Of a stretch of DNA of 64,000 bases, positions 16,210 through 60,800 are shown piece by piece (within the stretch, counting starts at the first letter, position 1; each line of letters begins with the position of its first letter). The notes below the pieces were generated by a model that saw nothing but the letters and a program-made list of their open reading frames with translations, was not told where the DNA came from and ran no database searches. Origin of the DNA: Ulva prolifera. Its lineage: Eukaryota > Chlorophyta > Ulvophyceae > Ulvales > Ulvaceae. Location: positions 1,584,501 to 1,648,500 of the forward strand of contig CM041197.1 of assembly GCA_023078555.1 (NCBI GenBank). Direction: 5' to 3'. Position numbers and translations under genes: made by a program.

Positions 16210-19200
16210 GTGTGCCCCTGCTCCCCTATGCAATGGCAGCTTTGCCAGCACCTGAGATTCCCCATCTATCACACCAGTGAACAAGTAAGTGACAGGCGCA
16301 CTGCTGCTATCCAGGTCTCGCAAACGATGGTGCCCTGGGCGCATCAGTGGCCCTTAGTGGTCCGGACGGGGGGATGTGTGCCCACGAAGAGCCCCTGTTC
16401 CAGGTGCCATCATCTGCTGCAAGCCAGCCCTCACTGGACTCCTCCAATGGCTATTACATCTTTGATCGCAGTGCAGCAAATGCACACTTCATAGAGTCAA
16501 GGTCACCGTTCTTCATGGATATTGCGAGCTCAGGAGGATTCACTGCTGTCGTCGCTCTGCGTCTCCGCACCAGCCCAGCGTCTGCGGGAGCCATGACCGT
16601 GCTATCGCTGCGGGGGCCAAGCGGATCTCATCTCGTTGAGGGACAGCTTGGCGCCTTTGCCGGGAGCCAGCCTTCCTTCCGCTTCACTGATGCATCTGGT
16701 CGCGACTACCTGACAACTTCTGCGGACGTAGCCACTGCCACTTGGCTGGTCCTGGCATTCCATTATGTGCATTCCTCTTCGGAGTGGTCCATCTACGTTG
16801 ATGGCGTCCAAGAGGGGAATAGTGCACAGGCTGATGTACGATCCTGATTACCGATGAAACCTGTCGTGCAAGAAGTGCTGGATCTCACCTCATATTGATT
16901 GTGAGACTGCTCTGTGTGAGACTTGCCATGATCTGGCATTTAAACTCGCAATGCATGGCAATCTGACCCAGGCTGCCACGCTCATGATGAACCTGTCAGA
17001 ATCTGAGGAAATGGCAGTGTCACATCTGCAAAAAGTTGAGAATTTGCTGGTCATTGGGCTAAGATCATGCAGATGCTCTCAGCCGGTGACCAACTGTACG
17101 ATCTTGGCCTGAGCTCAGCCTTCATTGGGTCAGATGACATTGCCGATCAAATGGATGCTGATGTTCGCTACGCAGCCATTTACAAGCGCCCCTTGTCTGC
17201 AAGTGAGATCAATGCCATCACCACCAAGTTCTCAGGCGCTGGCGCCATCTGCACAGGCATGCAGCAAGGTGCGCCTCCTCCTCATGTTCCACGCTTTCAC
17301 CACGTGCTCTCTCTAGAGGTGTGCCATTAAATCTCAACATGGCACTTTGAAGGCACAGCTAAGTGCAGATGCTCATCATGGAGGTCCCGTGCCCGCTGAG
17401 GGAGGTCCCTGGCTTTGCAGAATCTGACGCCCTACTTGTGCTGTCCGCCCCAGATGGCGGCGTGTGTCCACGAGCCACCACTCCCATCTTCAGGCTCCCG
17501 TCCTCACCGACAGCGCAGCCAGCTCTATCTGGCGGGGCCCTGGCGTTTTCAGGAGGATCTCAACGCCTTGAGCTGTCTGTGCCCGTGCTGAGAATCCCTC
17601 TCAGGTCCACGACGGGTTTTTCTGCGATCCTCACCTTCCAGCTGACGTCCATGCCAGGGGCTGCAGACTCGACCTTGCTACTACTGACTGGCGACACGTA
17701 CACGATCAGCGTCCGTGTCACAGCTGGAACGCAGACGTTGCAGTTCAAGGTGGATGTGGGCGGCGGTGTGACCTACACCGTGGCTTCTGCAGTTGCATCG
17801 GTGGGCCCAGCCACGTGGCACACCGCAGTCGTGCGGTACGAACAAGAGACGCACAAGATGCAAGTGTGGGTTGATGGTGTAGACAGCACCCAAGCGAGCG
17901 TGGCATCCACGGTGTGTTTTGCTGTGATGGCATGTGTCAGGTCACTCCTGCAGCTGCACTCGTTCTCCAGCGCCTGTTGCGGCGGACACTTTGACCCCAT
18001 CTTAGCCATGCGGTGTTGGGAAAACAGCAGAGAAGCATATGGTCCCTGTCAGTCACACAACACTGGGCGTTTATCGCCAAGCCACTTTGGCAGAGGCATG
18101 CTAGCGGCTCTCATCTGCCCACAGAGCTCTGAGGGCGATCGACTCGTCGGAAATACTTATCCAGATCCAGTGCAGTGTGCGTCGTGCTGTCAGCTTCAGC
18201 AAGAGTGTTGTTGCTGCATCGGCTGCATGTGTAGGGTCACCATGCGGCTGCTGTGTAGATTCAGGCCAGCGGCGGTCTGGACGACTTTGATGCCGAAGCA
18301 GCCTACATTGGTGGAAGCCCGGCAGACGATGGAATCGATGGAAGCATCAGGTACCTCGTCATTCTTCAGAGATCGCTGTCCGAGGCCGAGATGTCCGCGC
18401 TGTCCTCGACCTTCTCCGGCACAGGGGCCATATGTGCCACCATGGCGTATGGTGCGATTCGTTACATATCCATGCGTATGCTACTGTGGGGTGCCAGAAA
18501 GCACGACCCCCTGACCGTGGCGGCGTGGGGCGATGCATTGTGTGTAGGACTGCAAGGTGGGCATCGCTTGATTCACTGAGGCAGCCACGCCAGAGTTCCA
18601 CATGCTTGAAACATGAACATGCCACATGCAATGCTGCAAGTACACAGCCGCAGCACCGTGATGCCGGAAAAATGCAGCTTCTTAGTTGTGCCGACCGGCA
18701 GCGTGTGTCGCCGCTGGCTGTACATGCATGTATGAGTGTCGCCGCTGGTGACGTCCGTGGAACCTTTGCCTCGTCGGCAGGAAAACAGCACGCCAGCCAA
18801 AGCTGCTGTCCGGATGACATGCAACCTGTGCTGCCCCCTTGGTCGATGCACAGCAGCGAATCTCAAACACTGTCCATAGCTTCGTGTCTGCCTGCTGCCT
18901 GCGGTTTGTTGCCGAGATTCATTTTCCAGCTGACCCAGTGCTGTGCTGATTTGGACATTCGCATGCAGATGATCGCCTGCCAGCTGTGGCGGCCGTCACT
19001 GCTGCAGAGTACAGCCACTGCCCGCAGCTAGTCCAAGCCATCGATGCGCTGGGGGGCACCCGGCCTCCCGGCCTCAGCACGGACAGCGGCAGCCACGTCT
19101 TCCGGTTCGACCGATCTCAGGAGAACTACATGGAACTGCCTGGCCTCACATGCCACATGGCCAGCAACGGCGGCTTCACATTCATCATGTCGCTCAGCTT

Positions 19201-22200
19201 CACTGTAGACCCGTCTGCTTCAAGCTTCATGCTTCTGGCATGCCTGCGAAGCCCTACAGGCTCGAACCACAAATTCCTGCTGTACACAAACAACGGAGAC
19301 GGCCGAATCGGTGTTCTGCTGTGTGGTGCAGATGACTGTGCAAGACTGCTATCTGACTCTCCGGCGCCGGGTGGTGTGTGGCTGACGCTCGCCGTGCGTT
19401 ACGTGCGTCAGGCCTCGCGAGTGGAGGTGCTGATCGACGGCGAGCTTGCCTCCGTTGTAGACACTACCAACTTAAAATCCGATGTACGCTCCTGAACGCC
19501 TTCGCCACAGGGTCTGGCACTTTGCTTCGGGTGCCTGTTCTGTAACGTCTGCGGGGAGCCGTTCCCTGGCAGCATGCGATTTCGACTGTGGCAAGCGGTG
19601 TCATTTCAGCCTGAAAGTTTCAGGCTTTTGGCATGCGCGTGCCGTGGGTAGTGCTCCGTAGGCAGATCTAACCCCACGGCCTAAATATGCCATGCATAGG
19701 GTCCGTGCCTGTGTGGCATGTGGTGCTGTGGGATGCAGTGATGGTGGAACTGGAACACGATCATGTGCAAAATCCTGTGTATGCGCAGCGCTCCCTAGCT
19801 GCCAGATGTGCATTTGGGATCATGACCTGAGCAAAGTGACCCAGCCCGACATTGGCTGGCAGGAATCATCAGTGTGTTCATGGGAGACGCGGACAACCAT
19901 GGTGGATGTAGTCTTCGCACGGACGCCGTTGCGAGCGCCATTGCCCAGAGACTGGTATCGATTGGCTGCGCATGGTCGAGGCAACGTGCAGGTCGAGGCG
20001 ATCGGCGCCGAGGATGTGGAGCTGCGCGGCCCGATCGGCGTGTTCTGGCAGTCCCTCAGTTCTCCATTTCAGAATTATCCCTTGGCTGCGGATGTGCGGC
20101 ATGTGTCAGTGCACGACGCCGCGTTGAGCGATGCTGAGATGCATGCCGCCACAGTCGCCCACGCCAGCTCCGCACCCATCTGTGCCTCCCTGCACTCCTC
20201 CGGTGCGCACCAAACCCCCCACCCGCAGGTGGGTTTGCTGTAGCGTGTGCGCAAATGAGCTGACCGCATACTTGCACCGCCGCTGTGCCTGACCCCCTCG
20301 CATGTATGCATGATCACGTCAACCACTGTGTCCACTAGGATACTGATGCACGCGATCATTCGAACACGCATGCGGCCAGGATGCATTGCATATGGACGGC
20401 GAGAGATAATGTAGAGTGGTGCATGTGCTTTAAATTTTTGTACAACGTGTAGATGCTGGCGGCGGTGTATGACCATTGACCAGCGTGGCAAATGCAAAAT
20501 CACTGCAAGCAGGCCGGCATATGGCCTTCTTGGTCTGAAGACGCTTGGACTAACGCTGTTGTATCGCTTGGTGGGTCTTCGCGCAGGCGTGATGGGCTTG
20601 GGGGTGTGTGTTAGTGCAACATGATTCGGTGGCAGAAAGGTTGTGCAGCTGCAGCTGTCGTCTCCAGTCATGTCTTGATGGGCTGCCGTAGCGTCTGCAG
20701 AGTCGAGCACGTGCAGACTGCATCACCAGTATGTGATTTGTCCTGTCAACCTGACACGTGGTGTGAGGCTAATTCTGCAGATGTGCACTAGCTTGTCACC
20801 GTTGCCCACGAATGCAATTCCGCCACATGTGGTCTCGATGTAGTCATTGCCACCGCGTACCTCTTCGCATCGTAGGACATAGGTAATACATGCATCCCTG
20901 CAAGCATGTCCTGTGGGGTCTGGCATGCGCCATTGCTGATCTTAGCACGAGCAGCTGTGTTGCAAGGACAGAGTCAGAGAGTAGCTGTGGGGTATCTTGC
21001 CAACTGCGACATGATGGCGTTGATGGCCTGATGATGATTTATCCATCCAGGTGGTGTGCAGATTTCGTCAATGGGTACGGATCGTCACGGTATGGTACAC
21101 CAGGTTACACAGCGCCCCCACCCCCACCCGCGCCCCCGCCTGTCGCGCCACCACCGGCGGTGCTACCACCACCTGAAGTACCACCACCGGCGGTACCACC
21201 ACCCCCTGAAGCACCACCACCGGCGGTACCACCACCACCTGAAGTACCACCACCGGCGGTGCCACCTCCACCTGAAGTACCACCACCGGCGGTACCACCA
21301 CCGGCGGTACCACCACCGGCGGTACCACCACCACCTGAAGTACCATCACCGGCGGTGCCACCTCCACCTGAAGTACCACCACCGGCGGTACCACCACCAC
21401 CTGAAGTACCACCACCGGCGGTACCACCACCACCTGAAGTACCACCATCGACTGTGCCACCGCCACCTGAAGTACCGCCAGCAGTGCCGCCATCAGCAAC
21501 ACCACCACCAGCAGTACCACCTCCAGCGATAGCACCACCACTGGCGACACCGCCAACAGCAACACCACCACCAGCAGTGGCGCCACCGCCTCAGGTCGAA
21601 CCTCCACCACCGCAGGTTCCGCCTCCAGCTGCAGTGCCACCACCACCAGCTGCAGCAGCACCGCCTCCACTGCTGGCACCACCTTCGGCAGCGCCGCTGT
21701 CACCTCCACAGTCCGGGCCGCCTGCGCCTGGACCAGCACCGGTGCAGCCTCCCACTTTGGCTCCGCCTCTACCACTGCCAGTACAACCATCACCACCGCC
21801 ACCACCTCCCCCATCTCCGACTCCGCCTCCCGCTTCCACCGCCTTGGCCCTCTTTGCCGCTCCGCCCCCGCCTCTAGGTGAGGCCACCCCCGTCTCACTC
21901 GACTATGAAGACCCACCCCCCCTCCCCCCCGACACGCAGCCCCCCATCCTCACGCTCCTCTCCCGGACCCTGCACATGACCCTGTACTCAACCTACGACC
22001 CGGCAGCTCAGGCATCGGCGACCGACTTTGAGACCCCCGACAGCGTCAGCATCGCCGTTACGGGGGCTGCCTCCCTACAGGGCTACCTCTCCAGTGCCTC
22101 CGCCACTCGTGGCCTTCCATACATCCCGAGCTCGGATGAACACGGGCCGGTGGAGGTTGTGTTTCAGGCGCGGGATGCCGCCGGGAACGAGTCCCCGCGG

Positions 22201-25200
22201 GATGTCCAGCAGGTCTTCATCTCGTTGACTTCATCTGCATGTGAGCCGGGGGAGCAACTGTGTGCTTCCGGCGCATGCAGCGTGGGGGGCCTGTGCTTGG
22301 ACCCCGCCCTAGCGGCGCTGTTTGCGACAAGCAACGTGGCCGTGTCAACGTACGTGCCGCCGGTGGACACCACACCCCCAGCCATCACAATGCTCGGGGA
22401 GCCCCCCGTCCACGTGCGGGCGACCTCTGCACAGACTGGGGACGTTGTGATCGAAATGACCGTGCCTGTGGACACTGTGTATGTTGACGCTGGTGCTGTT
22501 GCTGTTGACGACTTCGACGGCGATGTGACTGCCCGAATTGCGGCGACCGGGGTGGCTTGGGTGATGACGAGCGCTCCGACCCCGCCGGACGAACCGTTTG
22601 TGATCAAGTACCACGTATCTGACTCTTCGGGTAACGCTGCGGCAGTACGCAGCCGGCGGGTGTTTGTTGTGTGTCCAGAGGGGCGCAAGCTGTGTGCGGG
22701 CGACGGAGGGGGGTTCTTTTGCAGCATCTCAGCAGACACATGCATCCAGCCGCCCGGCAGCGCGCAGCCAGAGCCTCCTCCAGCGCCCGTGTTGACGCTG
22801 TTGGGGGCGGCGGTGGTAGAGGTGGCTCAGGCGCAGCCATATGGCGCATGTGCGCCCGACACCCCTGTCACCACGCCCTGTGACCGGGGCGCAACCGCGT
22901 TAAGCTCGGTGGACGGAGACGTCACCGTTCTAGTGCAAGCGTGTGAGCAGGGGTTTGCGTTTGACAGCTTCGGGCTGCAGGGATGCGCGATTGACACGAG
23001 CGCAAGCGGCGCAGTGTCGCTTGAGTTCTTCATCATGCACGGGGATGAGAAGGTGGCTGTCGTGCGCACGCTGTGGGTGCTGCCCAACTGCGCGGTCGGG
23101 GAGGGGCTGTGCGAGGACCGCAGCTGCAGTGTCGATGGTGTGTGTCCGCCAGGCTCCCCGCAACGAGAGCAGGTTATCAACGCGGCACCTGTGGTCACAC
23201 TGCAGGCGGTGGCATCGGAGACAGACCTGGGCGAGGTCCTCGTGCCACGGGGTTGGGCCTACACGATGTGTCTGGAGGGGTCGCTCCCAACGAGCCTGCA
23301 GCCCTGCGAGACAGGTGCGGTGCTGTTCAACACCTACTGAGACTTGCCTGGAAGGTCATGATATGTTTTCGCCTTCCCTGAGCTTGACCTGTTTAGCACG
23401 CGGCCTGGATTGAAGAAGATGCATCTCGAGTTGTTCCATTTGCTGGTGGCTGTGACGCCATCGACTCTGAGGTTGTTGTGTCTCAATGCATCCTTGTGGC
23501 TCATTGCTACATCTCATTGACACAGAAGTGTGATTGATAACACCTGACTCCCGAAAACTTCTTCAAATCCAACATGAGTGTGCTGCCGGAAACTAGCAGG
23601 ATCACATGCATTATGAGAGTGCAGGAGCGACAGCTTTTGATCTGGAGGATGGGGACCTCACACACCGCATCCTGACCTGCCCGCCACCCGAGTGCATGCC
23701 CTTTGGCTGCCCTGGCCACGAGCTGCGCCGCAAGGGCATCCAGGGCTGTGGCGCGGACACAGCCACCGCCGCCGTCGGCACCCTCCTCACCTTTGACTTT
23801 GTCGTCCTCGACCACAGTGTGCCCCCGGCAGTCTCGCGCGAGTCGCGGCTCATCCGCGTCACGTCCCCGTGCGCCGCGGCAGAGATCTACTGCCCGGACC
23901 TGGAGGCCCCGTACGACTGCGGCTCCAGCGACTGTGTGTCGCGGGCAGAGCTGGTGGCAGCGCAGCCACCTGCGGATGAACCCCCTTACCTCAACTTCAC
24001 CGCCGCGCTCCCCCCTGCTCTAATTGCCAACGGCAGCTCAGCCCGTGCGGCCGCAAGCCTGGCCGACATCCCGGAATCGCTGCTCTCTGCGCTGGGGGAG
24101 AGACGAGTCAGCTCCATTGGGCATGTGGCTGTGCGGTGTGGAGCTGCAATGCCGGTGCCGCTTTCGGTGTGCGTTGCGCCGGGGGCGCCGGCGGCGTGCG
24201 TCGCACATGCATGGCACGCTGACGCGAGCAACGTAGCGGCCGGGTGGGCGTTTGCTGTGAGCCCGGTGACGGACCCGGCATGTACAACGGAGCGCATGCA
24301 GAGCGGGGCGTGCGCAGCGTGCACAGCAGAGGCGGCGCTCATCGGCGGCTGCCTACCCGGCATGTACGCGTTTGCACTCCGAGCACAGGCCCCTAACGGC
24401 CTCTGGTCGGATGCTCAGATCGCCGTTGCGGTTGCCGTGCAGGCAGCTGTGGTTTCAGGGGAGGTAGGTGTTCGTGTGACAGTCCGCACCTCGGCGCACA
24501 ACGGGACAGACACTGGTGCCTCTGCTGCTGAGGTGGAGGAGCGACTGGAGAACACTCTAGGCGCTGCGGGACAGTCGGGGGTGTCTGAGGTGGCCTTGGC
24601 TGTCGGGAGTGCTATGGCGGAGGCGCTGACGCTGCATGACGGCGCGTGCAGTCTTGGGCCGTTCGAAAACATGGCAGACGCCGGCAGCGTCGTTGTGGAT
24701 GCTGGAACCACCGCCAGCCCAGTGGTTGTCGCCTCAAGTGTAGGGGGAGATGGGAGAAAAGTGCTGATGGTGCGGTTTCCTGCTACAAACGATTCTCATG
24801 TGCCCTGAGAGTCTATTGTTCACCACCGCTGGCCGCTGCTCAGGTGGCTTTGCGTAGCACAGTCACGTCATGGTCATGGTGACTGCATGACTGTGATGAT
24901 GCGACTGTGAATCATGCAGCGTGGACCACGATGCCGGCGCGTAGCAGTTGCAACACTGCAGGGCATTCTGTACACTAGTGAGCGGTTTGCAAAGAGGCAA
25001 GCAGCAGTGCTTGACGTATGAGCTGTTTCGGTCATGCGGAGCTCCGGCTGTGCTGTGCTGATGATGGCTCACACATGCCAGGTTCTGGTCGATGTGATGG
25101 TGTCAGTCGAGTGGACTGATCACATACCACTGGAGCCTTGCACATCGCGTCTGACCAGTGTACGTGATTTGTGCTGGCTGTGCAGGTGGACCTATCGTTC

Positions 25201-38790: not shown

Positions 38791-39403
38791 CTGTATGTAT
38801 GTTTGTATGCACATGTATATGCAGACATGGAATAGGAAATGCTATGCACTGTTACGCCAGCAAGCTGAACGTTTGAACGGAACTGGAGTCCATGAGGGGT
38901 GCGCATGCTTGTTGTGGCCACGTGCCTGTATTTTCATAAATTTAGTGCAGTGTAGAAATCTGAAGCATAGTGTACAGATGATTTGTCACTTGGATGACAG
39001 TGGAGTTGCAGCAAAATCATTGTGAGGGCCAGGCATGTAATTGTCGCAATCGTACAATCGTAGCGGGCGACTTGCAACAGGGAGGTATTAGTAATAGCAG
39101 AGTTCGTCGCATCAACAGGAAAAAAGGCTTTTTCAATTTGCTGAGATTATCATACGCATCGTCCACGATTGAGCAGCACTGCCTTGCTGACTAATCGCTC
39201 ACTCTATCTGTTTGTGAAGAAGACAATTGTCTTAACTTAAGTTACAAGAGCTCGGGCCAGTGCTTGGCAGAGCACCAAATCAGAGTACCAGGCAATGCAA
39301 CAAAAAGCAATGATCTGAAGATCTATACAAATTTTCTCATGTAGCACACAGCAAACGCCATCAACATGTGGTCAGCATATGTGGTCAGCATATGTGGTCG
39401 GCA

Positions 39404-39490
39404 TATGTGGTCCCGGTAACTCGGAGTTGTCAATGTCCAATAGGATACGGCGCCGGCTCAGTAAATTTATATTTACTTTACTTTACATGT
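39404..39490 (+). repeat. Dispersed repeat copy, with a 14-bp tandem array at its left side
   Basis: The sequence runs from GGTCCCGGTAACTCGGAGTT through GTCAATGTCCAATAGGATAC to a T/A-rich TTTACTTTACTTTACATG end. It matches the reverse complement of 63198-63272 closely. Both copies also share the flanking GGCATATGTGGTCCCG, which here is preceded by three near-identical 14-bp units. It could be the end of a transposable element or a solo terminal repeat. Confidence 0.8.
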
Positions 39491-39870: not shown

Positions 39871-42800
39871 TCAAGCATCTGTTCCTGCCTCCTCGATTTC
39901 ACGCCCATCCCCGCCTAGCTCTAGGTCACCCTCCTCCTCCTCAGCCACCGGTGGCAACGTCTGCACAGAGCACTCCCACCCCGCACCCAGTACCTGCGGC
40001 GGTGGGTCGTCCCACCCCGTAAACGTGCGCATCAGCGGCTCACTCGCCGATGCAGCGAGGGCTGGAGGCCGGGCCTCTGCCGCGGCAGCCTCCCACACCG
40101 TTGGGACCGCGGACATCGACGACGACAGGCACAGCGACCGCAGCTGCTCCGCAGACAGCTCCGACAGGACCGGTGCGAGCGGCTCCCCGAGGGAACCCTG
40201 TCGCAGCGCCTCCCCCTCCACCCGTGCGGCTGCCCGCACCAGCTCCTCCGCCATCGGCCCCCGCATGCTCCGCGTGAGCTTTACCGTGGCGTTCACGCAC
40301 CGGGGGATCCCCCGCGCGGCCCAGTTGAGCGGTGGGATCTTCTCCGCCTGCCACGCCGAGCACGCGTCCCGTGCGCCCGCCCGCCGCAGGCGGCGGAGCG
40401 CCTCATCAGCTCCCCCCGCCACGTCTTCACCTCGGCGCCGCGAGGAGCTGGGTGTCTCTCCGCCGTCGTCCGAGGGGGCATCTGTGGCGTCCCGCTCATG
40501 TCTCACTGAATCGTCAAGCTGCGTGCTGCTCCGATCTGCGCAGCGCAGCATGGACGGCTGCAGGCCGCTGAGTGTCGCGTCGAGCGACTTCAGCGCTGCG
40601 ACGGTGGACGATGACCGGGTCACCTGATTCTGTGCAGGCGCCGCCTGTGGCCCGGGTGTTGCGGCCGCGCGTGCACGCACTGCAGGCTCCACAGCCCCGT
40701 TCAGTCGGGCTCTGCGCTGCACCCTGTACGGTAGCGCTACAGCTCTGCCCTTACCCTTCATGCGGTCGTACGTATCAGCAAGCGCAACGGCCGGGGCTTT
40801 CCCCACGGCAGATGCATTGGTGGCATTTCTGGCTGCAGGCTTGCTATTGGCGTTCGATGGCCGTGCCAGCCCCACAGCCGCGGCAGCTGAGGGAGAAGTA
40901 GAGAGGGAAGGTGAGGGGCAGGCGGGATGTAAGGAACCTTCAGCAGGCGGCTGTGACTCAGCTGCATCCTGGAGCTCTGATACATATGCGGAGAGTGTGA
41001 CATGTTGCGGCGTCGATGCGGCGGTGTGCACGTCCGGCGTGTGGTGCTGCAGCGGCGGCGCCGAGGGCGCTGCTTCCTCCACCGCCGCCTCGGCGCCATG
41101 CTCAGCGGATGCACGGAGATCTGCTGTGCATGTTGCTGCCGCCAGAGGGCCTGCATGCATACAGCTGCGTCTGTTGCCGGCCCTGTACGGGTCGTTACGG
41201 CCGTGCCTGTCACACTCAAAGACCGCATGTGCATGCAGACGCCTTGTACACTACTGAGGCAGAGGGCACTCTGGTGCATGAGGTGTCCCACAGTGAAGCT
41301 TCCGCTCGAGATGATGATCAGCAAGAGAGCAGTGCCGACTGACTCAGTTGCTTCCCCAGAGGGGGGGGGGGGGGGGGGGGGGGGGTTTGGGCCTTCCAGA
41401 CATAGGTTAGAGACATCTAATTAGCACCTGGCCTAGCGCTGTGCACACCTGTGCCAGAACCAGCTTCACAAAGCCCCTCGGGCAGGCGCCGTGTGCCCAG
41501 CAGGGCCGGGGCTGCATGATCCAGGCTGAAAACAGCGGCGCTGCCCGACGGTGAGTCGGCACTCGACGGGCAGTTCGGACCCAACGATGAGCCCTGATCC
41601 GCCGCAGCCACAGCATCCGCTGGAGCCCCCTCCGCCCGTGGCGCCTGATGCCAAGCCGCCGCTGGCCCGCCCGCTTCCATCGCCACCCCCACCGCCGCAT
41701 CCGCGGCCGCTGCCTCTTGCGATCCCGCCGCCGCTTCCGCCGCCTCCATGGCCACCGCCACAGCCGCCTCCTCCTCAGTGGCATCGTGGGCCTTCTCAGC
41801 CACCTCCACTGCTTCCGACTCCACAGCCACCGCGGCCTCGTTGTCAATGTGTGATGCCTCTTGCCCAGCTTCCCATAGATCTGCGCCCGAGTCCACAGAC
41901 ACCTCTGGTGCGATCTCCACATGCATGTGCGCCGCCGCCTGCCCGGGTGCGGCCGGATCGCCTCCGTCTGCAGCAACAGCTGGCTGCAAGAAGTGCAGAG
42001 GGTCCAGGTCCTGGGGGCTCTGCTGCATGGCGGCCGCCGCCCCTTGGCCGTAATCTTCCAGGTCCTGCGCCCTTTGGTCCTCCAAAACCCCCAGGTCCTG
42101 GAGGCCTTGGGCCTCTGTGGCATTCATCTGCTGTTGCTGCAGAGTCTGCCCAGCATCATCTCCTGTCACATCGCGGCCGGATGCTCCGTCCCCGCCTGCA
42201 GCCTGGTCTGCTCCATGGTGCTCCGTCTGATGCGTGGAGAACTCCTGTGGCACTGAGGGCGGTTGCACGGCATCCTCTGCAATCAAACAGTTGGCAGCGA
42301 AGCCAGCATCGTGTAGCTGCCCCGTGGCGGCCTCGTCAGGGGAAGGTTGATGCATCGCGGGGGGATTCTCGAAAGAGCACGCGGCTGCTGCTGTTGCGGT
42401 GGGAATGGCGCGCGAGCCCGTTGAAGGGCACAGGCTGCTGGCGGTGCGTGGCCGCTCCAAAGAGGCAGCAGGGGGAGAAGCAGCAACGGTGTCTTGTTGT
42501 GAACCACAACCTTCACTGCCGTGATCCACGCTTGGGCAAGCATCGTCTGGTTGACTATCATTGCGATCACTAACACACGCGCTACAAGCCTCCGTATGGG
42601 TCGTGAGGACCAGTGCCAGCTTGCACTCCGGGAGCACGCCTTGCCTGCCCCTGCTGGCCACGGCAGCCTCAGGGCTCGCTGGACCTCTGCTGCCTCCTTC
42701 ACTCAGATCTGTCACATCCGCAGCTTGATCTGCATGCATGTCATGGCCAACTTCAAGCCAGGGTATAGTACCGTTGATGCTGGATAATGGACACCTGAGA

Positions 42801-45800
42801 ATCTGATCTATCCCGAGTCTCTGGCCATCTGTTAGGCTTTGCCTGCGCAGGTTCGAATCCTGTCGAGTGCGATGACGAGCACTGGTGCCCGAGCGGTTAA
42901 GGGGACAGACTAGAATATGGATAGCGCTGTTGTTGGCCTGGCATGTGCCTGTGGGCAACCAAGTGCACAGGGCAGGCACTTGCGCGACTTTTTGGGCCGA
43001 CACGATGTCTCATCGCTGGCCCAGTATACGCAACATCGTGCCATGTAACTGCCCATGCAAATCGACAATGCCCAGGAAGCTGAAATAGCATACAAACATC
43101 AGCAGCGTACCGCCCACACATGCGAATGCATCAGCCGCGCCAGCTAGAGCGGCGCAGGCCTTCCCATCCCCCCACTCCGTCCCCGCCGGCACACCTCCTC
43201 CACCCTCCGACGCTTGTGCCGCCGAGGCGCAGCTCCGCCTGAACGCGTCCCGGCAGCGCACGCGGGCCGCCAGGCACACCTGTGACGCTCCAACGGCATC
43301 GCCCCGGCCGTGATCATGAGCCTCCCACTGTAGCCTGGCAGCCTGAGCCTCCCGCGAACACGCAAGCTGCGTGCGAGCAAACACTCGCATGTCCCCCGCA
43401 ATGACGGCCCTTGCCCGGGCTATGCTCCGCGTGCTACGCCCCACCGCAATCCGCTCCTGTATGCTGCGCTGAGCACAGCCGCGCATATGCATGCCGTCTC
43501 GCGCACGAACACACGCCGCAGCCTGCGCGCGGGCAGCGCAGACGCGCACGGCTGCGGCAGCGCGCTCTGCAAACACCCGCGCCCGAGATGCATGCAGTGC
43601 ATGCATGCGAGCGGCGCTTGCAACGGCTGCCGACGCTGCGCACAGGCGAGCAATGGGCGCCGCCGCCTGTGGCGCGGTGGCCGTATCGGCGTGCACGCGG
43701 AGCGTGGCGTAGGCGCGCGCGGCGGCCGCGAGCGCGCTGCTTGTATCGCGCGCGGGGCGGCACATTGCTGCGGTCGCCTGTGCGAGCATGTGTTGCTCAT
43801 ACTGCACAGGATTCTGGACAAAGTGTGTTGCTGATGAGGTCGCGGTACCTAGCTTCGCGGCCTCTTGGCGCAGCGTGTCCAGATCGCACTGATGGGCCTG
43901 CATGCACAGGCACCAGCTACGATGCAGTACTGCCTCAATGAATCCATATTGGCCCAGGCCCAAGATGCCTGGGGCCGTCCTTCGTCAAAGAAACATGACC
44001 AGGTGTCCAGTGTGTTGCGATCACTTGACACTGTGAACTTGACAGCCCAAACTCCACGCCGCATGCATGACACCCAGCAGGAAAACGTTTGGTACCAGCA
44101 ACAGCAGCCCCACAATGCGGCACCGGATGGCATTCCTGCAGGTCTGCCCAGCTGCCCAGCTGCAAAGGCTGTGCATGCATGCATACACGTTCTGATGCAT
44201 GATGTTGCACAGGAGACGGGCCAGGTACAACAGACCACGGCAGTGACAGCACACCCATTGTGCACGTGCAGGCTCAAGAGGCTATCGTCGTGGCAGCCAC
44301 ATGTTCACACAACGTTGTTCATGCTCACCACACGACAACCCCTGACACCAAACGCCCCACGGCAAAAGCGCCAAGCTGTGGCGGAGGCGGGGCCCGCACC
44401 TGCACTGTGGCACGGGCCTCTGCAGTGAGGCCATGCACGCTGTGCCTCGCGGCCCGGAGCTCGTGGATCTGGCGCTTCCGTGCGCGTCGCTCCGCCATCT
44501 CTCCCTCTCGCTTGGACAGTTCGCCCGGGCTAAGCGGTGACAGCCACGAGGCATCAGCTTGCTGGAATGACCTCCATGGGTGATTCCTTGCAGCGTTCAT
44601 GGCTGCATCATCATGTTCCGATTGCAGAGATGCTGTAGCACCATGTACATTGAGCTGGCGAGTGAGTTTCAACTGGCTCCATGGCTCCTGCAGGTCAAGT
44701 GATATCGGCATGTGGTCACGGTCACTCGGACGCATAATGGTGGCTGCGGCAATGTTGGGAAAGGATGTAGGGAAACAGTTCTCTGCTTCCTTATAGCAAC
44801 AGCGGCTGGTGCATGGTTGAGGCAGTAATTAGGATGCCAACGAAAATCGCTGGAGTGGCTGCGTAGTGTGACATCACCGGCAACAAACTGCTCGGCAGAC
44901 GTGGTGCACTGGTTCTATGGGTGGAGGTCGTTGCTGACGTGGCTGAGTGGCGATGACACTGTGTGCGCAGCTGCCTGCAATGGCGGAAGAGCAACGCTGA
45001 CAGAAATTTTGTGTATATATACATTATTTGTGTGCAAAGTGACAAGCTGGCCAGACAGCTTCCAAGCTTCCTGTCATTAGCTCAGTTGGTAGAGCATTAG
45101 ACTGTAGTGGGTCACATTGGCATCTAATGGTCGTTCGTTCGAATCGGACATGACAGAATCTTTTTCCTGGAATGGCACGTCCATCGACGTGTGTACCCCT
45201 GAGCAACGTAGGTGATTGGATGGCTACGCCGTGACAATGCCTGCAAGAATCGATCAACTCGTGTACGGTACGTCGCGGTATGCTACCTGAGCTCGGCATG
45301 CCTACAAGTGGCATGCCTACAAGTGACACAACCTGCATGCTCACATGCCAGATAAATATTTTCTGAAGTGGAATATAGAAACGATGTGGAGCATGGGAGG
45401 TCGCTGCCTTCCAAAGGCTGACGAGCAGGGAGTGTGCCACGACATCCCTTTGCTCTTCCGTGCACGTTCGCATCTCGCTATCAACAAGCAACCGCACGTA
45501 ATGTAGCGTACCGCAAACAGTGTAACGCTGAGTGACTTCGGGCGGAGTTATGCACAAACCATGAAAGCGTTTCAGTGCACCGTGCTGCCAAATTCAGAGC
45601 GCGTGCTGTGAATTTATAATGTGGACGTTCCGTCAACAGATGCGATAGTACAGGAAGCCGGTGCACAAGCAAGCACGGTATCAAGCTAGCTTGATGCGAC
45701 TGAAACACTGCAGATTGAGGTAAAACTATGCAGACTACAGATGCATCCCGTGGCAGCTGTAGCTGTGCCGTGTGGCCATGTTAGGTTCAGGCAGCGCATC

Positions 45801-54800: not shown

Positions 54801-57800
54801 TGGAGCGCTGACCGACCCAGTCCAACTCTTCCACGGCTGCGTTTGTTAGCGTGCAGAAACCAGCCGCGTGCTCCAACTCCAGAAACAGCACCGGCACCTC
54901 CTGCAGATGACAGTGAACGCCTCAACCCATATGGGTAGGGAGATGCATCCCGCACGTTCCCCGCGGCTCCGTAGTTTTATGGAGGCATCTCCCTACCAGT
55001 GCGCAAACAACATCTGTGGCCGTGGGTGACCGCTCTGCGTGTCATCAGAAAACGGAAACGTGAGCAATCCCAACTGTTCCATTCAGCCTCAAAGACACAG
55101 TAACGGGAAAAAAGGTATTTCAAGCGACTGCGCTGTGTGGTCGGGAATCCAGTGTGATTTAAGCTAGGGCTATATTGGGTGCGGGTCTGGTTTTGAGAAC
55201 AAATGCAGGCCATGTGACCCAGCACCACCACTACGGCCCGTGTCCGTGTCCCCCATGGTCATTCAGCTGCTCGAGACATGGATTCATGGCAGTGACTCCG
55301 GATCATGGTATACACTGGCAAAGCTGTGAGAGGCAGCACACCCCAGCCGAGAGCGACAGGTCTGGCAGCGACGAGGCGGCCTCCTCCATCCCGTACTGTG
55401 CCGCCTCGACCACGGCAGCAACTGAAAGGCTCTGGGCATCGGCCTCGCGGCAGGCCGCCGCCTCAAACGGCCCTGCCCCATTGCCGCCAGGCACTGTGGC
55501 AGTGGCAGAGACAGACACCACGGCCGAGTCGATGGACGCGGAGCCAGCGGTAGAGGCTGGAAGTAGCTGCTGAGGAGAGGGCAGCGACAGGGACGTGAGG
55601 TTGTTGGATGATATGAGGTCATTGAGGCACTGGGCTACCACGTCAGCGGAGAAGGTGGCGCCGGGGGAGACCTCGGCGGGAGATTCCGAGCGGGTGGGTG
55701 CGGACGTGAAGTAGAGTGCAGCGGCAGAGAGCGTGGGGGCGGTGAGAGCAAGAGTGAGTGGGACGTCAGCCTACAGGATGAGAACACTCGTAATGCAACT
55801 CCGTGATGCAGAGCGTGTGCTGGTTCAAGCTGCTTGATTCAAGCATTGGGGGCCAAGCTCTGTCCTGAGCTCTACACAGTCAGCTCGGGGACACGGCTAG
55901 ACATGGCGAGCTGCGTGGGACAAGCCTTGCAGGTGGATTTGCAAAAACAAGACCCGCGAGTTGTTATCAATCACTGGTGCTCCGTCACTGTGGCAGCAGC
56001 ATGAAGCTTGGACGCCTCGTTCAGGCTCGCCTGCACCATGGTGCCCCCAGGCCACACACCCGGTCCGTTGCCCCATTGGACGGACTCTGTCATTGTTGCG
56101 CAGATGCAGAACACTTGCCGACGGTGCTAGCAGCTACTACACACCGCATCGGCTCAGTGGGGACAACAGCACCGCTGCGATCCCAACGCAGCAGCAGACA
56201 GAAGGGCGCACCAGCAACTCCACGCCTCCGTCAACGGCGGTCGACTGGACCTCGATTTCGCCTGGAGCGGCCGCCTGCGACACCTCGACGCTGAGGCCCC
56301 CCTCTGGGCCCCCTGCAACGTCCAGCCCGCATGAGCCCTCTGCCTGAAACACCGCCGCATCAATAGAGCCTTGGAGCGCAAGGCGAAAACTGTTCAGCCG
56401 TGCCGATGTGGCCTGCATCTCTGCTGCAACATCGGCGGCCGCGGCCTCCAGGCTACCAGCCGGCTGCCCCGGTGCTTGCTGCACTGCAACTCGCAGCTGG
56501 ACAGTCACATCACCGACCGCTATGGACGCGCGGACGGAGACCAAGGCTGCGACTGGAGCCGCCGCACGGGCGCCCCCCGGCGCCGTGGCCGTGAGGACAA
56601 ACGCGTAGGTGCCGGGCAAGCATCCGCCGCTGTGCACCGCCTGCGCTGTGCACGCTGCGCACTCGCCGAGCTGCATGCGTGCGCTTGTACACGCTGGGTC
56701 GATGACCGGCGCAACGGTGAACTTCCACCCGGACATGGGCGCGCCGGCCTGCCGCGCCTCGACCATGCATGTGTCTGCAGATGCGGGTGCGGGGCAGCCG
56801 GTGAGTGCGAGTGGCGTGGGGGTCCCGCAGGCCACAGTCATCTGGACAACGTTGTCAACCCGCGCAGCTGCGAGAGAATCAAGCAGCGACTGCGGGAACC
56901 TGGAGCTGCTGTTGAGAGCTTCGAGTGGCGATATGAGAGTGGAGGGTACTGCGGCAGTGAACGCCAGGGAGGGGGGGTGTGCAGCGGCGGGATCGGACGC
57001 GGAGGCAGCGGCGCGTGCTGGGCATGCTGTGGTGCCGCATGTTAGGCGTGCCGGTAGATCGGGGCAGTAGATCTCTGACGCGGCACACGGCGACACGACC
57101 CTGATGACCCGGGTGACACGTGTGGTCACAGGGGGCACGCTGAGGTCCATGACAACGATGTCAAAGGTGATGAGGGTGCCGACGGCGGCGGTGGCCGTGT
57201 CCACACCGCAGCCCTGGATACCCTTGCGGCGCATCTCGTGGCCGGGGCAGCCGAAGGGCATGCATGTGGGCGGCGGGCAGGTGAGGATACGGTATGTGAG
57301 GTCCCCGTCTTCTGGATCGAAAGCTGTCGCTCCTGCATGCACATGCATGCAATGAGCAGACATTCATGCAGTCCATGCATGTGGCCGCTATCACTCGCCA
57401 TGCAGGACGTCAGGTAACACAGACAGTTCCGACGCCAAGCACAGCACTGCCGTGCAGCGGTCAATAGAATGCAACTGGCAACGACTGCCGGACAATCGTA
57501 GCCGATGCAATTCGTTTCCCTGGCGATCACGCACAAGGCTGCGGCAGCATGCACACCTGTCTCACATGGCCGCTGCGCTGTGGGGAGCACCTCCCCAGTA
57601 CACATCGTGTAGTGCCATCCCGCTGGCACGAGGACCTCTTCACCTGTACCCCCAGCAGGCTGCACAGCACGCAGCATGGGTGGCTCATTGGCCACCACCG
57701 CCCTCAGCTGCACCCCTGGTGGACAAATCCCGCCGACGCTGCAGCTGCGGTCCTCGCACAGCCCCTCCCCAACCTCACAGTCAGGCAGCACCCACAGCGT

Positions 57801-60800
57801 GCGCACCACAGCCACCTTGAGGTCCCCATGCATGACGAAGAACTCGAGCTCGGTCGCGCCGGCTACGCTTGTGTCGATGTCGCAGCCACGCATGCCATAC
57901 CGCGGAAAGTCAAATCCCGGGCGGCAGGCCTGCACTGCCGCCGACACGTCGCCGTCGATGCTACTCACCGCTGACACCCCGCGGTCGCAAGGGACGTCCA
58001 CAGGTATCTTTGGCCCACACGCCCCGTACACGCCCCCACGCTGCACCTCCACCACTGCAGCCCCAACCAGCGACAACCGTGGCGGCGGCGGCGCAGGCGG
58101 CGGGGAGGTGGCAAGGGGGGCAACACAGGTTCTGTCGGACAGACTGCAGAAATACCCCCCGCCGTCCCCAGCACACAGCGCGCGGCCAGAGGGGCACACA
58201 ACAAAAACCCGACGCCTGCGCTCCGCCGCCGCATTGCCCGCAGCATCCGCCACGACGTACCTTATCACATACGGCCGCCCCGGTGGCGTAGGTGCTCTGG
58301 TGTCCACCAGCGATAACCCGATCTTGGCAACGCGTGCGCTGACGTCGCCGTCAGTGTCATCCACCGCCGAAGCACCGGGGTCAGAAAACTCCGTTCCAAC
58401 GACAACTGTTGTCTCTATCACGATGCCGACCTCACAGCGCGGCACCGCGCGCACATGCTGCGGTGGCTCACCATGCATGGTGATATTTGGGGGTATCGTG
58501 TCCACAGGTGGTACATACGTTGACACTGGCCTTGGCACCGCACCAAACTGCGCGGCCAGCGCCGCACCAAAGCACAGGCCACCGATGCTGCAGCCGCCTC
58601 CGCCGTCGCAGACACGCTCCCCGGCGCCGCACGCTGGGGCGTCCAGCGAGATGTACACACGCTGAGTCAGCGGTGGTGCGACGTTGCCAGCCATGTCAGC
58701 GGCGGAAAACACGACTTCAACTGGGCCGTACTCTCCTGTACCGGGTGAGAACGGCAGCGTGCGGACGGCGGCGGCATCGTTCAGGTACCCCGCCAGCGCA
58801 GCAGCGCCGCTGTGCACGATCGCGACGCGGCCGGGCGTCTCAAAGTCTGTTGCGATGGCCTGCTGCGCTGCGGCGTACGCGGAGCCCAGCGGAAGCCGCA
58901 GCACTGGGGAGAGAATCGTCAGCAGCGGCGGCTGCGTGTCAGGGGGAAGCTCAGGGGGCGCCGGGCAGGCGTATTCTACGTCCGATGCGGCCTGCAGAGG
59001 CGGTGGCGGCGCTGCAAAGAGCGTGCCGATAGTGTCTGAGGCGCCGGGTGGAGCGTCCACAGTAGGCAACTTGAGCCCGCCGGGTTCTGTGCCATCGCCA
59101 GGGGGGTCGCTGCTGCCACCCTGCGAAGGCTCACTCTGAATCTCTTCACCATCAGACACACTGTCAGGGGCGACTGCTGCGGCGGCAGGACTCGGAACTG
59201 CGCCCGGGGCTGTGTCACCTCCAGCTCCATCTCCCCCAGACCCGTCGCTACTGGACCCATCGTTTCCAGACCCATCGCCGCTGGACCCGTCGCCACTAGG
59301 TGTGCCGCCCCCTGACCCATCGCCATTAGGTGTGTCACCCCCTGATCCGTCGCCACTAGGTGTGCCGCCCCCTGACCCATCGCCACTAGGTGTATCCCCT
59401 CCAGATCCGATATCACCGGACCCATCGCCGCTAGATGTGTCCCCTCCAGACCCATCGCCAATAGGTGTGTCGCCCCCTGACCCATCGCCGCTGGGCCCAT
59501 CGCCACTAGGTGTATCCCCTCTAGATCCGATATCACCAGACCCGTCGCCGCCACCTCCGTCACCACTAGCCCCGTCACCGCCGCCTGATGCGTCGCCCTC
59601 CGGAGTTCCCTCGAGCGGTGCTTCAGGTGGGCTCGATGCGGGGCTGTCAGCTGTAACATCCCCACCGGAGCCACTGTCGCCCGAACTGCTGCCAGAATCT
59701 CCGCCCGAGCCAGCTACCGGTGCTGCAGCTTCTCCCGGTGGTGTTGCGCCAGTGGCGGCACCGTCAGGGGTGCCACCGGTCCCGTCAGGGGCAGCGGCGA
59801 CAGGCGGTCCTGAAGGCCCCTCAGCCACTTCGTCGCCGGGGGCAGCCGCCGCAGAGTCCGGTGCGCCAGCTGCAGGGATTGCCGGCGCCGGTGCCGGGCT
59901 TGGAGCTGGCGCCGGTGCCGGGCTTGGAGCTGGCGCTGGGGCCGGGCTTGGAGCTGGCGCTGGGGCCGGGCTTAGAGCTGGCGCTGGGGCCGGGCTTGGA
60001 GCTGGCGCTGGGGCCGGGGCCGGCGCAGGTGTAGGGGGGTCCGGCGGCGGTAAAGGCGCCGGAAGCCGCAGCATCGACGCCGTCGCAAACCTGGGCGCGC
60101 CATAGCCATTGATGACATCTGCAGCACTAGCTGCATGCTTAAATACAGACCCGCCAGCTCAGGCGACTGTGAACCCCCACGAGGCCACACTATACATGGT
60201 TTACAGAGTCACGGTGATTAGCTGCGGGTCGAACACCATGCATTCCACGTTCCGCTCACGGCCGCACTGGAGGCGGCAGTGGTGGCGGCCGTTTAGCTGA
60301 CCTGCCACAGAAAGATACACACGCATGCAGCATCAAAGCAGAGCTGGTGTACGTCGCGACAGCTCATGCTCGCACAAGAGTGTTTGTCGCTTGGCGTGGG
60401 CAGCGCTGTGATGAGCCTGTAGGCCGTCGCAACCCAGCCGATGAGCAACAGCCATACCTGCATGCATGCATGTGCAACCACACAGCATACAGCGCGCAGC
60501 GCACCGTGGGGGAGGAGGCTGGAGCAGATGGGCTCCGCCGCGTCGCGGTGAGCCTCGAGGCCGGCTCGCAGCTGCGCGTCGGAGACGAAGGCCCCATGCA
60601 GCGACACGTGGCGCACGTCGGCCTGCAGCTGCCGCGGCCCGGCCGCACCAGGCGTGCCGTCGGGCTCCAGCCATACTCCCAGCCGGCCGCTCATCTCGAC
60701 GTCTTGTGGCATCACACCTGCCGCCTGCAACATCCGCCGCACACGCGTGTCAGTGCAGGTGCGCGAGTCGCAGGGCCAGTGATGTACAACATATGTGGAA

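Follow-up and report, generated by a model that had tools for sequence, protein, structure and literature searches.

Can a transfer RNA (tRNA) gene whose two halves stand in reversed order be a working gene, and even the main source of one serine isoacceptor, in the nucleus of a green alga? The question is raised by a short locus within a stretch of 64,000 nucleotides (nt) from Ulva prolifera, hereafter the window (C2:1584501-1648500, on contig CM041197.1 of assembly GCA_023078555.1, which comprises 88.9 Mb in 44 contigs). A first-pass annotation had described positions 42827..42915 of this window as a circularly permuted tRNA-Ser(AGA), encoded with the 3' half upstream of the 5' half and a gap of 7 nt between them. 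From the analysis reported here, we estimate at about 90% the probability that the locus is a type II (37/38) permuted nuclear tRNA-Ser(AGA) gene and belongs to a family of three permuted genes from which all tRNA-Ser(AGA) probably derives.

Gene order and the re-joined tRNA

Positions 42827-42871 (+) correspond to the 3' half of a tRNA-Ser(AGA) (tRNA positions 38-73), followed by the linker and then by the 5' half, so that the two halves are adjacent, on the same strand and with the 3' half first, as in a type II permuted tRNA gene. Read in its native order, the interval 42827-42915 yields no tRNA with either ARAGORN or Rfam (at the gathering score). When the fragment is duplicated, ARAGORN calls a tRNA-Ser(aga) of 82 nt, broken inside the anticodon loop, and the re-joined halves form a complete type II cloverleaf with a single G-G mismatch. 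The sequence of the re-joined tRNA also includes the canonical U8, G18G19, U33, TTCGA, G15-C48, and G73. The best split is 37/38, with the 5' half ending in ...CTAGAA (A37) and the 3' half starting with ATCTG... (A38) to give the loop CUAGAAA; ARAGORN places the break one base later, still within the anticodon loop. The coordinates, the order of the halves, and the 82-nt type II serine tRNA with anticodon AGA and G73 proposed in the first-pass annotation were all recovered, and both weak points it had listed, an acceptor mismatch and a G-U pair in the T stem, are real.

The permuted signal stands out clearly within the window. Duplicated fragments slid by 10 bases across both strands (6389 of 110 nt and 6386 of 140 nt), a scan that detects only anticodon-loop breaks with the halves close together, returned 12 junction-spanning calls. 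Ten fell on the 42827-42915 locus (labeled Ser(aga) in seven cases, Ala in two, and Gly in one), while the other two represent an ordinary tRNA-Tyr gene cut by the fragment edge. We also used R1, a permuted-order covariance model built from three Ser(AGA) copies (see below) and 15 artificially permuted ordinary tRNAs. With R1, the window locus scored 67.7 bits (E-value 4.3e-22, a rough calibration for a locus that is itself a training row), and the next-best match in the window reached 21.8 bits, on the tRNA-Tyr. Scores for the three copies, all training rows, were 67.7, 71.7, and 65.2 bits, against at most 29.3 bits at the other loci searched.

Three permuted copies and the search for a conventional gene

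Searching the genome with the re-joined tRNA returned three places, each matched as two pieces in permuted order, one in the window and one each on C1 and C4 (Table 1). Linkers measure 7 nt in the window and C1 copies and 15 nt in the C4 copy. Between copies, 42-43 of 45 positions agree in the 3' halves and 35-36 of 37 in the 5' halves (93-97%, ungapped), whereas in the flanks only 17-22 of 70 agree from -41 to -110 and 13-23 of 68 from +13 to +80 (19-34%, ungapped). Leader identity is intermediate, at 10-11 of 14 from -13 to -26 for all three pairs and 6-9 of 12 from -1 to -12; by BLAST, similarity stops 1 nt beyond the 5' half, with no shared downstream sequence. Differences between copies inside the halves are located in stems, and two of them are compensatory: at pair 4-69, C1 has U-A where the window and C4 copies have C-G, and at pair 50-64, C4 has U-A where the window and C1 copies have C-G. 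Pair 6-67 is U-A in C1 and C4, C-G in a conventional tRNA-Ser(TGA), and G-G in the window copy, while the T-stem G-U pair 49-65 is common to all three copies. Overall, 98.8% of cells pair, compared to 29.8-45.2% when the structure is slid. Pair counting was nevertheless dropped as a stand-alone statistic, three sequences being too few. Taken together, the three copies look like a conserved permuted gene family rather than a rearranged pseudogene.

No conventional Ser(AGA) gene was found in the assembly with the re-joined DNA, with T-arm, D-arm or anticodon-loop patterns, or with most of either half at up to three mismatches, searches which could miss a gene more diverged than allowed or lying outside the assembly. 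A DNA search with the conventional Ser(TGA) found only itself, even though the permuted copies match it at ~88% over 35-43 nt; searches of that type thus overlook kin, which makes the mismatch-tolerant searches the stronger test. With up to three mismatches, a query of 29 nt from the 37-nt 5' half detected only the three permuted genes and the conventional Ser(TGA) (at three mismatches), and one of 34 nt from the 45-nt 3' half detected the three permuted genes only, with 0 matches in both controls. Either search would also detect a gene interrupted by an intron at 37/38. The first-pass annotation had asked whether conventional copies exist elsewhere and would have taken several intact ones as the sign of a rearranged pseudogene; we observed the opposite, with 0 conventional genes found versus three Ser(AGA) genes, all permuted. 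Conventional serine tRNAs found include at least one Ser(TGA), on C6, and at least two Ser(GCT), on C4, whereas Ser(CGA) was not located in any form in this partial genome survey. This tRNA inventory is a lower bound, since only 63 of 1780 candidates from the Rfam genome search were scored. One of the Ser(GCT) genes (L070:2054-2135, -) lies in the opposite orientation ~1.0 kb upstream of the permuted gene on C4, and its 5' acceptor strand is one base off that of the second Ser(GCT) copy.

We surveyed the genome for further permuted tRNAs through conserved motifs, a partial approach with a coverage that excludes other T-arm forms and split genes. The exact T-arm motif GGTTCGAATCC occurs at 63 places (control, 16), of which three are the permuted Ser(AGA) genes, seven lie in Rfam-listed tRNAs, and 53 (52 loci) were extracted. 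Among the latter, six are ordinary tRNAs and 47 lack an ARAGORN tRNA, and R1 identified none of the 53 as permuted. Five junction-spanning calls among the GGTTCGAATCC loci were discounted, as they came from four ordinary Leu genes through which the fragment edge had cut. The looser pattern GGTTCGABTCC is near chance, with 91 places versus 102 in the control, and the 20 of these 91 that were examined had no ARAGORN tRNA and at best 25 bits with R1. Anticodon-loop patterns GACTAGAAATC and GACTCGAAATC gave 8 (control, 7) and 16 (control, 6) matches, respectively; these 24 loci contained no tRNA and no R1 match at an E-value of 0.001. Finally, the D-arm pattern CGAGYGGTTAAGG matched seven times (control, 6), in the three permuted genes, two Ser(GCT), one Ser(TGA), and one Leu(TAG), and in no conventional Ser(AGA).

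Some of the loci collected in this survey are unusual in their own right. Two related loci, L166:92-117 (+) and L170:85-110 (-), combine a tRNA-like T arm with the acceptor 3' strand GCCGGTTCGAGTCCGGCCTTGTGCA and have no ARAGORN tRNA, and are possibly diverged, disrupted or pseudo tRNAs. L040:164-235 (-) is a 72-nt tRNA of class I size with anticodon ACT, labeled Ser(act) by ARAGORN, an odd assignment for a eukaryote and perhaps a variant of another isotype. Nine of the 18 loci inspected belong to a dispersed repeat family with an exact B-box-like GGTTCGAATCC and no ARAGORN tRNA (Table 1).

Transcription signals and the splice junction

All three copies are preceded by promoter-like sequences. 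The TATA-like element of the window copy (Table 1), likely an RNA polymerase III upstream promoter, has counterparts in TATA at -62 and -60 from the 3' half in C4 and in AATAT at -64 in C1, and TATA is enriched ~30-60 nt upstream across a set of 69 ordinary tRNA genes from the same genome (related copies kept in). A start ~30 nt downstream of the TATA-like site would make the leader roughly equal to the conserved block upstream of the 3' half. Downstream, the first T-run is found at +12 in C1 and +15 in C4, and much later in the window copy. For comparison, the first TTTT follows within 25 nt in 53 of the 69 ordinary genes and at 0-54 nt in 67, the remaining two having no TTTT within 110 nt.

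At the junction, the leader CUGG can pair with C32 U33 A34 G35 (CUAG, window 42910-42913), and both strands are invariant across the three copies. This helix adjoins the anticodon stem, with 3 nt left unpaired at the 3' site, and is possible in all three copies, so that the junction can form a bulge-helix-bulge-like (hBH) motif. The minimum-energy folds of window positions 42808-42925 (where it has 5 bp) and of the C4 stretch contain the CUGG/CUAG helix, and in the window copy an outer helix, CUAUCC/GGAUAG, extends beyond the junction where the other copies differ. Short anticodon-loop introns are predicted in several ordinary tRNAs (two Lys CTT, Lys TTT, Thr AGT, Thr CGT, and the window tRNA-Tyr), hence tRNA splicing is expected to operate at this position, and the genome includes two matches to the tRNA splicing endonuclease family (PF01974).

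By analogy with known permuted tRNAs, RNA polymerase III would start downstream of the TATA-like site and transcribe leader, 3' half, linker, 5' half, and trailer. The anticodon stem and the CUGG/CUAG leader/loop helix would then create a bulge-helix-bulge-like site, at which the tRNA splicing endonuclease would remove leader and trailer before a tRNA ligase joins position 37 to position 38, yielding a circle. RNase P and tRNase Z would subsequently excise the linker from this circle, and maturation would conclude with CCA addition. Such a pathway would fit the anatomy of the locus, except for the late T-run of the window copy. A34 is expected to be converted to inosine, allowing the tRNA to read UCU, UCC, and UCA. 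With three permuted copies and no ordinary version found in our searches, RNA-circle splicing of tRNA-Ser(AGA) is probably needed by the cell to read common serine codons.

A single ordinary tRNA gene is detected in the window by ARAGORN and Rfam, at 45071-45157. It is a tRNA-Tyr(GTA) with a 14-nt intron if introns are allowed, and is labeled tRNA-Thr(TGT) in a run without introns. A dispersed repeat of ~90 bp, AT-rich at one end, occupies 39399-39488 and has at least 40 copies at ≥90% identity (40 scored copies from 1362 first-look candidates); related stretches also occur near the C1 and C4 permuted genes, probably by chance. Among 20 open reading frames of the window compared with Pfam, 17363-18514 has a laminin-G match below the cut-off, and 20887-23340 and 57126-60158 have Ig-like surface-domain matches above it, which suggests that these three may encode large extracellular proteins.

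Table 1 Permuted tRNA-Ser(AGA) genes, parts of the window copy, and an associated repeat family (window positions unless a contig or locus is named)
Feature	Position	Strand	Description
Window copy	C2, 42827-42915 of window	+	Permuted Ser(AGA)
C1 copy	C1:6172469-6172381	-	Permuted Ser(AGA)
C4 copy	C4:3601163-3601259	+	Permuted Ser(AGA)
TATA-like element	42764..42767	+	63 nt upstream of 3' half; likely RNA polymerase III upstream promoter (predicted)
Leader	42790..42826	+	37 nt, conserved; would be spliced off; BLAST similarity to C1 from 42790, to C4 from 42803
CTGG	42821..42824	+	-6 to -3; leader strand of the bulge-helix-bulge-like central helix
3' half	42827..42871	+	Position 38, anticodon 3' strand, long variable arm, T arm (B box), acceptor 3' strand, G73
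Linker ATGACGA	42872..42878	+	7 nt; would bridge acceptor ends in circular intermediate
5' half (1-37)	42879..42915	+	Acceptor 5' strand, D arm (A box), anticodon 5' strand, loop to 37
Anticodon AGA	42912-42914	+	Inside 5' half
GGATAG	42919..42924	+	In trailer; pairs with leader CTATCC (42808-42813) in fold of 42808-42925
First T-run after 5' half	42989..42993	+	+73; possible polymerase III terminator (predicted)
B-box-like repeat family	L071, L072, L075, L079, L080, L095, L104, L119, L121		Dispersed repeat

Alternative explanations and significance

The evidence for a permuted tRNA-Ser(AGA) gene family consists of the gene order, the re-joined cloverleaf, the conservation of the copies, the possible pairing at the junction, the promoter-like site, and searches that found no conventional copy. 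Several observations weigh against it. The number of pairs, counted on only three sequences, is not significant relative to shuffles (64/500). The TATA-like sites, at -60 to -64, lie at a slightly greater distance than is usual for ordinary genes, and that of C1 is limited to AATAT. Folding is ambiguous as well: the CUGG/CUAG helix is absent from the minimum-energy fold of the C1 precursor, which differs from the cloverleaf, and the re-joined window and C1 tRNAs likewise have minimum-energy folds other than the cloverleaf that re-joined C4 adopts. In addition, predicted folds shift with the length of flank taken, RNAalifold pairs the leader instead of the anticodon stem, and precursor folds are no more stable than shuffles (z of -0.44 for the window and +0.46 for C4). 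Single-strand folding energy was dropped as evidence since shuffles are equally stable, and these flank-dependent and deviant folds mean that folding is no proof of the splice site. Finally, the G6-G67 acceptor mismatch is private to the window copy, which also lacks a T-run before +73. These last two features make the window copy the weakest of the three.

They also raise the question of whether the window copy is a decaying paralogue within a functional family, with C1 and C4 supplying the tRNA, a scenario compatible with our interpretation of the family as a whole. We consider such decay unlikely: one acceptor mismatch is tolerable in working tRNAs, two of the 69 ordinary genes likewise have no TTTT within 110 nt, and the window copy retains 27 of the 28 counted pairs, the CUGG leader, the TATA site, and an intact anticodon. 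Moreover, it departs from the other copies at just 2-3 of 45 positions in the 3' half and 1-2 of 37 in the 5' half, between flanks at chance level. This same contrast, together with the compensatory changes and the constraint seen across three copies, makes it very improbable that the locus is a rearranged pseudogene, i.e., leftover halves of tandemly arranged tRNA-Ser genes that do not function in permuted form, as does the outcome of the assembly searches for a conventional Ser(AGA). A dispersed repeat of this genome does contain exact T-arm motifs, as would be expected if the locus were a chance resemblance or a tRNA-derived repeat. This explanation is scarcely credible given the R1 E-value (with the caveats noted above), the restriction of permuted calls in the window to real tRNA sites, and the occurrence of only three copies within three mismatches, which share nothing downstream of the 5' half.

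The permuted Ser(AGA) described here joins an already known kind of gene. A compilation of 34 permuted tRNA genes includes type II Ser(AGA) genes from Micromonas pusilla and the nucleomorph of Bigelowiella natans, which have in their tabulated features the same anticodon, 37/38 junction, and absence of intron as the present genes, and terms the green-algal and nucleomorph junctions at 37/38 hBH (Soma 2014, PMC3978253). The linkers of these two genes are 64 and 5 bp, compared to 7, 7, and 15 nt here, and each genome has one tabulated Ser(AGA), compared to three dispersed copies in 88.9 Mb (PMC3978253). Cyanidioschyzon merolae genes share the order of 3' half, linker, and 5' half, and they too have an upstream TATA-like site and a downstream T-run, the latter lying close to the gene only in C1 and C4 here, and a circular intermediate was reported in this alga; unlike here, however, the compilation tabulates no permuted Ser gene for it and places its junctions at several positions (PMC3978253). 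The same source outlines the pathway of endonuclease cut, ligation to a circle, linker removal by RNase P and tRNase Z, and CCA addition, weighs neutral remnants, mobile-element protection, quality control, and genome reduction as reasons for persistence, and notes permuted genes alongside many transposons in Ostreococcus (PMC3978253).

In chlorarachniophytes, both Ser(AGA) and Ser(CGA) are permuted in the Bigelowiella natans and Amorphochlora nucleomorphs, and the authors infer permuted Ser genes for the green alga that gave rise to the plastid (PMC4494063), whereas only Ser(AGA) was found permuted here in a partial survey. Among non-prasinophyte green algae, permuted tRNAs are also reported in Auxenochlorella (PMC12633428, PMC12636532), specifically in strain UTEX 250-A in a study citing prasinophytes for earlier green-algal cases (Plant Cell 2025, PMC12636532). 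The permuted arrangement proposed in the first-pass annotation is supported, but in view of Auxenochlorella it is somewhat less rare than was assumed there. No published report tied to a permuted tRNA of this genome was found in the open-licence PubMed Central (PMC) literature. As a tentative scenario, to which we give less than even odds, the permuted Ser(AGA) may be old and vertically inherited, common to prasinophytes and the green alga behind the chlorarachniophyte plastid, and may here have entirely displaced the ordinary gene and then, still in permuted form, spread to three chromosomes, making the circle compulsory for decoding UCU and UCC in a large genome with repeats.

The genomes of M. 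pusilla and of the B. natans nucleomorph are much smaller than 88.9 Mb. The present family extends the known picture with a large genome in which one isoacceptor apparently comes only from three dispersed permuted copies. Since both ARAGORN and the Rfam gathering score miss the locus, ordinary tRNA annotation can overlook permuted genes. The three copies also offer diverged natural substrates for testing the rules governing leader, linker, and splice site. Finally, a permuted gene multiplied to three copies, and seemingly the only source of its isoacceptor in a repeat-bearing genome of this size, speaks against the view that permuted tRNA genes are retained because of genome reduction alone.
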